A stretch of 64,000 nt of DNA, taken from positions 177,353,539 to 177,417,538 of the forward strand of contig BTPG01000005.1 of assembly GCA_036245525.1 (NCBI GenBank), given 5' to 3'. The position numbers were made by a program, and so were the translations under genes. Shown here in pieces: positions 1,994 to 56,433 of this stretch (positions are counted from its first letter, which is position 1; each line of letters starts with the position of its first letter). The DNA comes from Semisulcospira habei (Eukaryota; Mollusca; Gastropoda; Semisulcospiridae). The notes beneath the pieces were generated by a model. That model was not told the DNA's origin. It was given only the letters and a program-made list of their open reading frames with translations, and searched no databases.

Positions 1994-2221
1994 TTAACCA
2001 TTATCATTTGGAATACACCAGCGTGGCAAATAAGTTTGACTAAAATAGTTCAAGGGCAGTGCCAGAATAGCTTGGCGCCTCTAGGCCCCAAGCAAGCTAT
2101 TCTGGCACCACCCTTGAGCTAAAGCCATTGGTCTATATCCTTATCTGTAAGTACTATAATGTAGCTTGCATATGGCAGTGTACAAATTTGAAGCTTTTAG
2201 CCTCAGTATGATATGGGTTAA
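1994..2221. mobile_element. Hairpin MITE, type A, TTAA to TTAA
   Basis: TTAA at both ends, and a central hairpin at 2049-2118 whose left arm CAGAATAGCTTGGCGCC pairs with a slightly disrupted right arm. Copies with the same outer arms occur at 4328-4562 and 49849-50069. Confidence 0.85.
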
Positions 2222-2407
2222 ATGCAGTTGGCCAATGAATAAAAGGTCGTTGTATAGTAAAAAATGAACGCGAGTAAATAGGTGCTCACTTTGAACAGGT
2301 GGCCGCTACAGACAGGTGCCCTAGGGCAGGTTTGACTGTGAAGAAAATGGCCTTTCAAAAACAAAACAAAAAAAATCTGTTTCAAAGGAAACTTTATGGA
2401 GGCACCA

Positions 2408-2612
2408 TTAACCCTCTTAAGCCCAAGGCCCCATTTCAAAATTTTGGAGTTGTCACCTGACAACTACGTACCAGGATGGACTGTGATCATTCAAGGGCAG
2501 TGCCAGGTTAGCTTGGCGCCAACAGGCGCCAAGCTAATCTGGCACTACCCTTGAATGATCACGGTCCATCCCTCTCCTGCAGTATGGTCTTGGGGCTAAA
2601 TAAATGGGTTAA
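2408..2612. mobile_element. Hairpin MITE, type B
   Basis: TTAA at 2408-2411 and 2609-2612. A long stem (about 2474-2571) runs from GGATGGACTGTGATCATTC to its near-exact complement, with the shared GCTTGGCGCC core at the apex. Type B arms carry AACCC...AGCCC at the ends. Confidence 0.85.
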
Positions 2613-2680
2613 AGCTATTCTGACACCACCCATCCATACCTTTATCCTAGTACGTCAGGGCTGAATGGGTTAAGCTCATC
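2609..2680. mobile_element. Right-half remnant of a hairpin MITE
   Basis: AAAGCTATTCTGACACCACC followed by CGTCAGGGCTGAATGGGTTA is the right half of a hairpin element whose left arm is missing. It abuts the previous copy at a shared TTAA. Confidence 0.65.
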
Positions 2681-2686
2681 TAACCC

Positions 2687-2897
2687 ACTTAGCCTCAAAG
2701 CCACATTTCCAAAACTTTGTAGGTGTCACCTAACAACTATGTACCAGTTGCAGCAGATGTATCGACCGTGATAATTCAAGGGCAGTGTCAGATTAGCATG
2801 GCGCCTGTCGGCGCCAAGCTAATCTGGCACTGCCCTTGAATTATCATGGTCAATCCATCTCCTGCTGTAGGGCGTCAGGGCTGAATGGGTCAAGGCT
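2687..2897. mobile_element. Hairpin MITE, type B
   Basis: Begins TAACCCACTTAGCC, ends GGCTGAATGGGTCAA, with a stem at about 2762-2855 containing TTCAAGGGCAGTGTCAG and its complement around GGCGCCTGTCGGCGCC. Confidence 0.85.
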
Positions 2898-3183
2898 GCA
2901 TTACAGCTCAGGAGAGAGATCAACTGTGGCAGTTCATCAGAGGTGCCTGTATGCGCAAAGCCTTTCTAGGATCACCTTAGATCTAACTGTCATGGTCGGT
3001 TGGTAGGATCAAACTAACCACTCACTCTTCTGTGACTATGGACGCATTGGGCTGCATGGATTACATCAGAGTGCCTAAAGGCCATCGGGCTGATGTCAGC
3101 CATGGTTGGCCCATGCATGGTGTGCAAGCCGAACTGTCGCAAACATCCGCCCAATGTCATTTTGCGTACTGGAGACTACTCAC
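2898..3183. other. Intron 9 sequence, no feature recognised
   Basis: Start of the intron following exon 9. I see no exon, repeat or RNA gene in this stretch. Confidence 0.5.
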
Positions 3184-3386
3184 TTTTCTGCTACTAAGGA
3201 CACGAGGGGCACGCAGTCTTCCCAGATGGCCAGGCATCCGTCCACCTTGCCCACTTCCTCTAAGATGTGCCTGGCAATGTCCTCTGCGTGCTGCCTGTCC
3301 TCTGTGTGATCTGTGATGTCGTGATACATGAAGTGGAACACCTCTTTCTGGGCAAAGTGGTTTGCGTCTGAATCCACCAGAATTAC
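3184..3386 (-). CDS. carns1: carns1-like exon 9
   Basis: Acceptor CTCCTACAG|GTAATT, donor GCAGAAAA|GTGAGT, 203 nt, phase 0 in and 2 out. It encodes VILVDSDANHFAQKEVFHF, DITDHTEDRQHAEDIARH and VDGCLAIWEDCVPLVSLVA, aligning in order with the pre-ATP-grasp Rossmann-like region of CARNS1. I see no following exon in 1-3183, so the gene continues beyond the window start. Confidence 0.88.
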
Positions 3387-54560: not shown

Positions 54561-54979
54561 GCGACAGCGACTAGAGCCCGTGTTTGAGGACGGACAAGCT
54601 TGAAATTGTATGATATTGTCCCTAAAAGAATTATGTCGATAATTTCTTTTTCGATTTTTTTTTATTACGATGCTCATTGCCGAGAAAATGGCCGTTTCAC
54701 AAAAACCGGTTCATCCACACTGGAGTCTGTAATTATTCTTATTTTTACTAGATATATTGCATTTAGCTAGATAAAAGGGAGATACTGAATGAGTTCGTTA
54801 ACCAGCATTGTACTTCTAGAACCTTTTGAGTGATAATGAAATTAAAAAAAAAAAATATTGTACGTTTTTGAGATTAATTTCATGAATTATATGGGTTAAT
54901 CTTAAAACAATTGAAATTTGTTTACGAAAAAAACCCCACATTCTTCTCATTAATAATCGTATGATTTTTCATATATGGT

Positions 54980-55015
54980 ATCAAAGACAATACATTATAA
55001 TGTATTGTCTTTGAT
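54980..55015. repeat. Perfect 36-bp palindrome
   Basis: ATCAAAGACAATACATTA is followed immediately by its exact reverse complement, with no loop. Confidence 0.95.
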
Positions 55016-55469
55016 GGTATTTACATAAGCCTACAGTTTGTCTCGGCTGTCGGATACAATTAGTTCACTTGTGACCTGTATGCCCTAGTTAACAGCTAAC
55101 ATAACTTTAATTTTTCTTTTACGAAATAAACTATCTTTTCAGTAATAACCGCATAATTTTTCATAAACAGTGTTTACATAAGCCTGCTGTTTGTCCTGGC
55201 GCTGGGGTAGGATTAGGTCAAAATTGTGACCTGTAACCCTAGGCGTGAAAATCAGCAAGAAAATTGCTAAGTTGATTCTCTGATACGTCAAATGTTAGTA
55301 CTGCGATGACGGATGAGTGACGTATAATATCGAGTCGTCACTATGAACGCGGCGTCGTGGGACTGATGAGGTAACGACGTGAAGCTTGAAGTGACGTCAT
55401 TTCGATGCTCGTGCTATTATTCTTCTTCAGAATAGCTATGCTACGCCAGACCACAGAGCTTACGAATGG
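55016..55469. other. No gene recognised
   Basis: AT-rich. The phrase ACATAAGCCT-C-GTTTGTC occurs at 55022 and 55167, suggesting an old tandem duplication. Confidence 0.4.
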
Positions 55470-55770
55470 CGGGAATCGCCGTGTGTCCGTCTTTATTTAT
55501 ATGTGCCAGTGTGTGTGCATCAGAGGGTGGGTTAGAGTAGAAGGAGATGGATTCCTGTCGCTACACGAGCCCACAGAGCATACTAATGGCGGGATGCGCC
55601 GTGTGTCCGTCTTTATTTGTGTGCGCCGACGTGTGTGTTGATCAGAGGTTGTCTTAGAAAGGAGGGAGATGGATCAGCATAATAAGCCTAAAAATATGAA
55701 CGACTCTGAATGTTCCTAAAAGATAAACGCATCTGAGCTCCAAACAATACGGTAGACTTTGGGATGAAAT
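55470..55770. repeat. Dispersed repeat, one full and one partial tandem copy
   Basis: CGCCGTGTGTCCGTCTTTAT occurs at 55478 and 55588. The second copy continues like 30030-30215 to CAAACAATACGGTAGA. Confidence 0.8.
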
Positions 55771-55889
55771 CCTCATCTTGTTCTCTATTTTTCGGCCCCT
55801 GGAAACAAGGTCTAGCGTCGGGGAGGCCTTTTGTATCAGGTTGAAAGTCCCAAACAAGAAGTTGAATCCCCCTCCCCGATGTAACTGAT

Positions 55890-56215
55890 GCGCCCCTGGT
55901 CCTTTGATATGGAACAGCTTCCCACAAGAAATACGCTACGCGCTGTGCAGTCATTCATTCAATACGTATCTTTTTATGTCTGCCCACTGATGACTTGCTC
56001 ATGTTTGTGTTAGTGTGTGTGTGTGTGTTAGTGTGTGTGTGTGTGTGTGTGTGTTCATGATCGTGCATGTACACGTACACACCAGTGTTTTTGTGGCTGG
56101 TTAATATTGTTCTTCTGTTTTGTTAATATGTATTTGTATATTTATGTTTGCATGCTTTTTGTACATTGTAAAGCGCTTACAGCTCCGACATTATTGTTAT
56201 TATTAGTATGTGAAG
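55890..56215 (+). mobile_element. CR1-type LINE 3' end fragment
   Basis: Plus strand reads LWNSFPQEIRYALCSHSFN then a (GT)-rich UTR, ending TTGTAAAGCGCTTACAGCTC and an ATT-type tail. Confidence 0.75.
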
Positions 56216-56222
56216 AAAGAGA

Positions 56223-56433
56223 TTAACTCGTTCAGCCCGACGGCCGTATTTCCCAATTTGGGAGGCGTCATATAATGACTGCACCAGTTGCAGGAGATGG
56301 ATCGACCATGATAATTCAAGGGCAGTGCCAGATTAGCTTGGCGCCGACAGGCGCCAAGCTAATCTGGCACTACCCTTGAATGATCATGGTCAACCCATCT
56401 CCTGCTGTAGTGCGTCAGGGCTGAATGGGTTAA
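56223..56433. mobile_element. Hairpin MITE, type B, best-preserved copy
   Basis: TTAA at 56223-56226 and 56430-56433. The stem spans about 56295-56402 (GAGATGGATCGACCATGATA ... pairs with ... TGATCATGGTCAACCCATCTC, nearly without mismatches) with the apex GGCGCCGACAGGCGCC. Confidence 0.92.

Follow-up and report, generated by a model that had tools for sequence, protein, structure and literature searches.

Introduction

Miniature inverted-repeat transposable elements (MITEs) are usually defined via their ends, and their interior is treated as filler. Internal sequences reportedly enhance the transposition of rice Stowaway MITEs, which would be a precedent for a cis-acting MITE interior, although these elements belong to another, mariner-like superfamily with a TA target and are not known to contain a conserved hairpin. 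Here we describe a MITE family with a TTAA target in a stretch of 64,000 nucleotides of the gastropod Semisulcospira habei (assembly GCA_036245525.1, contig BTPG01000005.1, positions 177,353,539 to 177,417,538 of the forward strand; hereafter the window, whose coordinates are used throughout), in which a palindromic core of about 66 nt is far more conserved between subfamilies than the arms around it. The core is constrained mainly in the lineages that give rise to new copies, and our overall account, in which the elements are moved by piggyBac transposases and the core acts in cis in this mobilisation, has in our estimate a probability of roughly 0.7.

The closest known system is CMITE, a group of MITEs of Acropora corals (Wang et al., 2010; PMC2872659). 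CMITEs share with the window family the TTAA duplication, CCC...GGG ends, several end types, tandem arrays and a link to resident piggyBac elements, and their 75 nt interior is more conserved between families than the ends. The interior may, in the view of its authors, take part in transposition, and they cite a study in which internal MITE sequences were able to enhance transposition (PMC2872659). CMITEs differ in being about 100 bp rather than about 210 bp long and in an estimated copy number of about 1,600 in A. millepora, compared with about 0.5 million for the window family (PMC2872659). The two interiors are unrelated in sequence: a CMITE interior 60-mer scored below the shuffle mean and had no match in the window and in the fetched sequences L001-L026 (L numbers denote DNA fetched from the assembly). 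This 60-mer also folds weakly (-11 kcal/mol as RNA, against -59 kcal/mol for the core at 4393), whereas the interior of the window family is a 31 bp hairpin with paired changes. Because the coral elements show the same kind of phenomenon, the family is not categorically new; it differs from CMITE in sequence, in having a hairpin as its interior, in the paired changes, in copy number and in the evidence from a branch-wise test, which the accessible parts of the CMITE paper do not contain. A TTAA target and long-lived MITE subfamilies are also found in the T2-MITE/Kolobok elements of Xenopus, whose ends are described as AGGRR rather than CYC (PMC6004289).

About half a million copies show the opposite of the ends-first view: the ends drift while the interior hairpin is held, and this hold acts mainly on the breeding copies. 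A pattern that was described as unusual, and left unexplained, for CMITE recurs here in unrelated sequence, and arm-only searches together with the branch-wise test address the concern about ascertainment bias which the CMITE authors had raised themselves (PMC2872659). A nearly fixed central hairpin between arms changed beyond recognition makes the purpose of the hairpin directly testable.

Constraint on the core in source lineages

The element is a non-autonomous TTAA DNA transposon (MITE) of about 210 bp with piggyBac-like ends, and its copies belong to a single family that is both old and very abundant. Oriented with the short arm on the left, it consists of a short arm of about 53 nt, the palindrome of about 66 nt and a long arm of about 95 nt. 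Once oriented in this way, 13 window copies of types A to E align from TTAA to TTAA, with short arms of 51-57 nt, cores of 59-70 nt (mostly 66) and long arms of 82-103 nt. A wider set of 45 copies was also used, of which 44 enter the type analyses, as L009:7386 could not be assigned; it does not include the copy with two short arms at 46403, nor the one of type E at 33607, which was lost when overlaps were resolved.

An earlier note on the window had proposed that the core is preserved while the arms diverge, and between types this is what the window copies show: identity is 0.805 in the core and 0.545 in the arms, and the core is the more similar part in 65/65 pairs. Within types the two are close (0.852 and 0.806, core higher in 9/13 pairs). 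Among the consensi of five subfamilies (10 pairs; E, with two copies, was omitted), the core differs at 3-8 of 65-66 sites (4.5-12%) and the arms at 16-78 of 134-139 (12-56%), with A and B1 differing at 6/66 core and 78/139 arm sites. The divergence of single copies from their consensus, on the other hand, is similar in core and arms in A (0.030/0.039), C (0.126/0.134) and B1 (0.052/0.068). The note had named equal core and arm divergence within types, and an alignment of all types as one family with ordinary decay, as speaking against its proposal; the divergences within types are indeed close and the types do align as one family, but the decay between types is not ordinary.

The same contrast appears in the branches of trees. 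On the arm topology of the 13 copies, the ratio of core to arm branch length is 0.79 on terminal branches (bootstrap 0.55-1.04) and 0.09 on internal branches (0.05-0.23), the internal ratio being the smaller in 60/60 column bootstraps. With the 45 copies, the terminal and internal ratios are 0.73 and 0.24 on the arm topology and 0.65 and 0.31 on the topology of the full alignment. Simulations on the arm tree at uniform rates, with the core at 0.73 of the arm rate, gave a mean internal core length of 1.18 and a minimum of 0.74, whereas the observed length is 0.38, a value as small as which occurred in 0/100 simulations. The constraint on the core therefore acts mainly in source lineages and is largely lifted in resident copies: because terminal branches and single copies decay nearly equally in core and arms, while internal branches and consensi do not, it is in the elements leaving descendants that the core is held. 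Furthermore, among 42 long arms found without use of the core, 32 adjoined a full core, seven a partial one and three none, which leaves little room for a simple ascertainment effect.

Selection on the hairpin was rightly raised in the earlier note as one option. Repeated conversion of the hairpin among genomic copies, another of its options, is not supported, as the cores of copies decay nearly like their arms (0.79 and 0.73); given the near-neutral decay on terminal branches of the arm topology, we reject conversion between resident copies as the principal cause, although the terminal ratio in this test drops to 0.31 if the core tree is imposed.

Several points weigh against a constraint acting in source lineages. 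In D and B2, single-copy divergence is about twice as high in the arms as in the core (0.127 vs 0.057 and 0.147 vs 0.070), perhaps because sub-lineages are held within these subfamilies. On the core topology the 45 copies give ratios of 0.31 (terminal) and 0.21 (internal), a far weaker contrast, although the core tree pushes arm changes onto terminal branches. In addition, the arm model of the ascertainment check was built from copies found via their cores, and the types were assigned by their arms, so that arm distances between types are maximised.

Pairing within the hairpin

All 31 positions are paired in the core consensus of C and in that of B2; the consensi of A, B1 and D have one unpaired position each, while that of E (two copies) is too ambiguous for a call. 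Subfamilies differ by paired changes: at pair 19, B has T-A where A, C and D have A-T; at pair 10, it has A-T where C and D have G-C; and at the pair just outside the core, it has A-T where A, C and D have G-C. Within the 44 copies, 1098 of 1220 core pairs are formed, a number reached by 0/1000 permutations overall and by 1/1000 within types. Where both sides differ from the consensus pair of the fine subfamily, 18/26 combinations are Watson-Crick pairs (17/23 where the consensus is ungapped), with several such changes within a single copy (in L021:889 and in the window copy at 2408). Pairing continues through most of the outer stem in B and D and ends three pairs outside the core in A. Paired changes keep the core a hairpin, and two things are therefore kept, namely the pairing and, in the core, also the sequence. 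Against this stands the result for the 13 window copies alone, in which pairing within types does not exceed permutation (1269/5000 reach it).

The hairpin could instead be kept by templated copying of one arm from the other in the source elements, through palindrome correction or foldback synthesis, with the core as merely the best-pairing part and without a function. We consider this a possible but rather unlikely explanation. It would fit the excess of pairing within copies, which is still above permutation within finer subfamilies (reached by 10/1000 permutations in the core and 0/1000 in the outer stem), the predominance of Watson-Crick pairs among two-sided differences, several of them in single copies, and the behaviour of a second TTAA palindrome family of about 80 bp, in which 0, 1 and 4 of 38 positions are mismatched within copies and 6-11 between them. 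However, templated copying keeps complementarity and not sequence: the outer stem of B and D is paired yet changed, whereas the core sequence has changed little, and A-type copies have spread despite their lost outer pairing. Unrecognised sub-lineages could also produce an excess within copies, and the excess is absent in the 13 window copies alone.

The copies of this second family, near-perfect palindromes whose two arms change together, lie at L009:6344-6423, L025:7283-7362 and L041:3197-3277. An apparent further MITE family is made up of palindromes (95-119 bp; L017:5416-5510 and L026:3479-3597) that are bounded by TTAA and have a GATTCCTGTAGGAATC-like centre; a palindrome with such a centre also lies in the window at about 16010-16105 (by eye only).

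Copies in the window and relationship of their arms

The half-core TTCAAGGGNRGTGCCAGA has 27 matches in the window with at most two mismatches (shuffle mean 0.01) and the motif AGCTTGGCGCC has 23 with at most one (shuffle mean 0.9), while a profile of the aligned copies gives 23 non-overlapping matches, some of which are pieces of one copy. The copies and larger pieces are:

1994..2221, plus strand: full element, subfamily A; core 2049-2117; TTAA at both ends
2408..2612, minus strand: full element, subfamily B; core 2490-2555; TTAA at both ends; three paired changes outside the core
2612..2673, minus strand: truncated piece with core remnant and short-arm end, adjoining the TTAA of its neighbour
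2681..2892, minus strand: full element, subfamily B; core 2775-2840
4339..4561, plus strand: full element, subfamily A; core 4393-4458, a 66 nt hairpin of -59 kcal/mol as RNA (z -13)
7283..7494, minus strand: full element, subfamily C; core 7374-7439; TTAA at both ends
7493..7653, minus strand: element without one core half; break at the loop (7608)
7671..7759, plus strand: degraded copy, core 7699-7757; absent from the list of the earlier note
16182..16334, plus strand: element without the second core half; break at the loop
27213..27426, plus strand: full element, subfamily C; TTAA at both ends
28914..29126, minus strand: full element, subfamily D; two-sided change (CG to GC) at core pair 14
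33397..33609, plus strand: full element, subfamily E; terminus TTAACTCATTCTACCCCA, also found in the pb523 piggyBac element
33607..33804, plus strand: element of type E; short arm truncated at its outer end
38548..38757, minus strand: full element, subfamily B
46403..46570, strand not assigned: odd copy, core with a short arm on both sides
46653..46783, plus strand: half core and long arm; break at the loop
47078..47285, plus strand: full element, subfamily C
48130..48470, plus strand: copy whose core is interrupted by about 145 nt of other sequence
49849..50069, minus strand: full element, subfamily A; TTAA at both ends
56223..56433, minus strand: full element, subfamily B; TTAA at both ends; as a single DNA strand it folds over its whole length (-85.5 kcal/mol, z -17.9)

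Besides the copy at 7671-7759, further pieces lie at 9-68 and 38822-38878. All 14 two-armed cores listed in the earlier note are present, at most 20 nt from where it had placed them, its half and split copies (7575, 16231, 46653 and 48183/48344) are real, and its reading of a TTAA target with C-rich, piggyBac-type ends is borne out by the six copies with TTAA exactly at both ends (1994, 2408, 7283, 27213, 49849 and 56223). Its several unrelated arm types, by contrast, are not confirmed, as the oriented types align end to end and arm-only tests join them as a chain.

In these tests, global alignments of the arms alone were compared with 200 dinucleotide shuffles each, and they order the types as A-C-E/D-B. 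For the long arms, all pairs exceed all shuffles in A-C (9/9), C-E (6/6), B-E (8/8), D-E (2/2) and B-D (4/4); the links B-C (9/12), A-E (3/6) and C-D (2/3) are partial, and A-B (1/12) and A-D (0/3) are weak or absent, as one would expect for the ends of a chain. The short arms give weaker links in a similar order (A-C 9/9, B-E 7/8, B-D 4/4, B-C 6/12, C-E 3/6, D-E 1/2 and A-B 2/12). The tested arms include the shared TTAA ends; as A-B mostly fails despite these common ends, they alone do not carry the test. Judged by these alignments, the arm types are diverged homologues and not unrelated modules.

Swapped arms, as in a modular unit whose mobile hairpin core gained different arms by recombination, had likewise been suggested in the earlier note and are very unlikely: the mostly undetectable homology of A and B arms and the composite or split copies at 46403-46783 and 48130-48470 would suit them, but the architecture is constant in five types, intermediate types connect A with B, and of 36 cores in arbitrarily placed DNA 33 are flanked by a long arm and 32 by a short arm.

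The short arm resembles the reverse complement of the long arm more than 300 shuffles do in all four B copies and in the E copy E33451 (0/300 reach the score) and nearly so in D (1/300), and the B short arm still matches the reverse complement of its long arm minus about 40 nt. No clear palindrome outside the core was found in A and C when short and long arms were compared (4-90 of 300 shuffles reach the score), and beyond about 20 nt their arms are no clear inverted repeats. In the five subfamilies having consensi, the ends read TTAACCC or TTAACTC, that is, terminal inverted repeats with a CCY motif. The two ends of one subfamily share 11-14/16 terminal positions and ends of different subfamilies share 5-12/16, so that the ranges overlap.

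Six of 37 truncation ends fall into the loop window (1.9 expected, p = 0.012), which is suggestive only of hairpin-linked breakage, as this loop window was chosen after such copies had been seen. The insert that splits the copy at 48130-48470 partly resembles, by eye, a 61-bp tandem repeat at 9155-9337. A 68-bp unit in five tandem copies (306-643 and 1937-2006) combines flank with the initial 13 nt of an A-type element. This flank also adjoins the full A element at 1994, and positions 9-68 contain the long-arm end of another copy.

Mobility and the probable piggyBac machinery

In the wider set, TTAA is present at both ends in 24/45 full copies and at each end singly in 30/45. The earlier note had proposed a search for empty sites with a single TTAA, and among 28 joined flank pairs searched within the fetched DNA there was one true case: an A-type copy (L021:1980) sits in a background repeat, and its joined flanks match, across the junction, a relative of that repeat with a single TTAA and no element (L020:1348-1466, 75% identical). 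The left flank of a B-type copy (L020:53) is by eye the same repeat as at L021:1980, up to the same TTAA, and its right flank differs; as a second empty site this copy was a self-match and is not counted.

The genome contains 116 scored matches (1058 candidates) to the piggyBac transposase domain PF13843, most of them without internal stop. Of 17 transposase loci taken, a script recognised the ends of 10, and the pb523 pair, added after its left flanks had been extended, brought the elements with recognised ends to 12; five loci (L038, L039 and L041-L043) gave no end pair. The autonomous ends are of the TTAACYC type with two exceptions: one reads TTAACCT, and in one pb523 copy both TTAA sites are mutated. 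The pb523 element (3.4 kb, two copies, 93% identical) has the ends TTAACTC(A/T)TTCTACCCCA. In the 13 nt after TTAACYC, the E copy matches the pb523 end at 11/13 positions (3/5000 shuffles), the best of 12 ends, and D-short (10/13, 17/5000) and B2-short (10/13, 22/5000) also match this end best. With 11 ends tested, the likeness of E appears safe after correction and those of D-short and B2-short borderline; the pb523 loci came from the list of transposase matches and were completed after the likeness to E had been noticed.

The window family has in common with the piggyBac superfamily and its TTAA MITEs the target, TTAACYC ends, unequal ends and transposase genes in the same genome. Since TTAA target, ends and resident transposase genes coincide, mobilisation by resident piggyBac transposases seems most likely. 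On the other side, none of the 12 piggyBac elements with recognised ends contains the core, and with these autonomous elements only the outermost 18 nt or so match, for some subfamilies only. The 13 nt test was not significant for A-short, C-short, C-long and B1-long, and past the first seven bases 0/10 arms of A, B1, B2, C and D beat shuffles against 20 sampled autonomous ends, a comparison that excluded the E and pb523 ends.

Several piggyBac element families of about 2.8-3.4 kb are represented among the fetched loci (L028-L037, L040/L044 and L027/L045). A GTCCCATTTTTGGGAC subterminal palindrome is present at only one of the two ends in the pb574 and pb674 groups.

Proposed mechanism

Taken together, that this is a TTAA/piggyBac MITE, a single family and one whose core is constrained at the level of the source is highly probable. 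An origin by inverted duplication is probable because the B short arm equals the long arm minus about 40 nt. The copies would be excised and pasted by piggyBac transposases of the same genome, and their outer ends would drift in concert as successive piggyBac transposases become available; the two ends changing together within subfamilies is as expected if they track different transposases. The 66-nt palindrome may be a cis-acting part needed for efficient mobilisation, either as the site of a dimeric protein or as an extruded hairpin, and only sources keeping the palindrome would leave descendants. In piggyBac itself, a dimer of the C-terminal domain of the transposase binds a 19-bp palindromic internal repeat (PMC7351741), which makes a dimeric protein site at the core plausible, but no sequence link was found. 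For such a role of the core in cis, as read from sequence, we see even odds. A bolder version, which is doubtful, would make the hairpin and not the terminal repeats the lasting identity of the element as seen by the machinery, leaving the ends free to follow successive transposases; the palindromes of the sources would be renewed arm from arm, and complementarity and core sequence would be kept by two separate forces.

That the hairpin is kept for yielding a small RNA (miRNA- or siRNA-like) is highly improbable, for all its near-perfect 31 bp stem (-59 kcal/mol as RNA, z -13): resident copies show little of the constraint that a host function requires, and the window has 0 matches to known RNA families of Rfam at gathering scores. 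Mobilisation of the Kolobok type, which leaves an identical TTAA duplication, is similarly improbable, as the window family ends in CYC while T2-MITE ends are described as AGGRR and Kolobok ends as RR (PMC6004289), and piggyBac transposase genes with mostly TTAACYC ends are plentiful, though no search aimed at Kolobok transposases was made.

Abundance in the genome

A genome-wide search with the core, as the earlier note had advised, returned about 0.5 million half-core matches: with at most one mismatch, 259,051 on one strand and 259,127 on the other of the 1.98 Gb assembly (eight large contigs of 178-344 Mb), against 4 and 8 for a control pattern. Eighteen 10 kb stretches at round coordinates (180 kb) served as an arbitrarily placed sample, in 14 of which 50 non-overlapping matches were found, 33 of them full length; by summed match lengths, the family covers about 9 kb (about 5%) of this sequence. 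The sample is representative by half-core count (54 found, 46 expected) and extrapolates to about 0.55 million copies (Poisson range about 0.41-0.73 million). The sequences L001-L008, which had been found via the core, were excluded from all counts except the joined-flank test.

Core patterns had 0 matches in the viral contigs and in the bacterial and archaeal genome contigs scanned. In the literature we found no earlier description of the family, which repeat databases such as Repbase, not covered here, may list; one of four core strings occurs in literature text, in apparently unrelated contexts.

Other features of the window

Besides the MITE family, the window contains several non-LTR-like reverse-transcriptase fragments, microsatellites and homopolymer runs, and has the appearance of animal nuclear DNA. 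On the minus strand at 3200-4070, exon-like stretches resemble by eye a candidate gene of the ATP-grasp/carnosine-synthase type.

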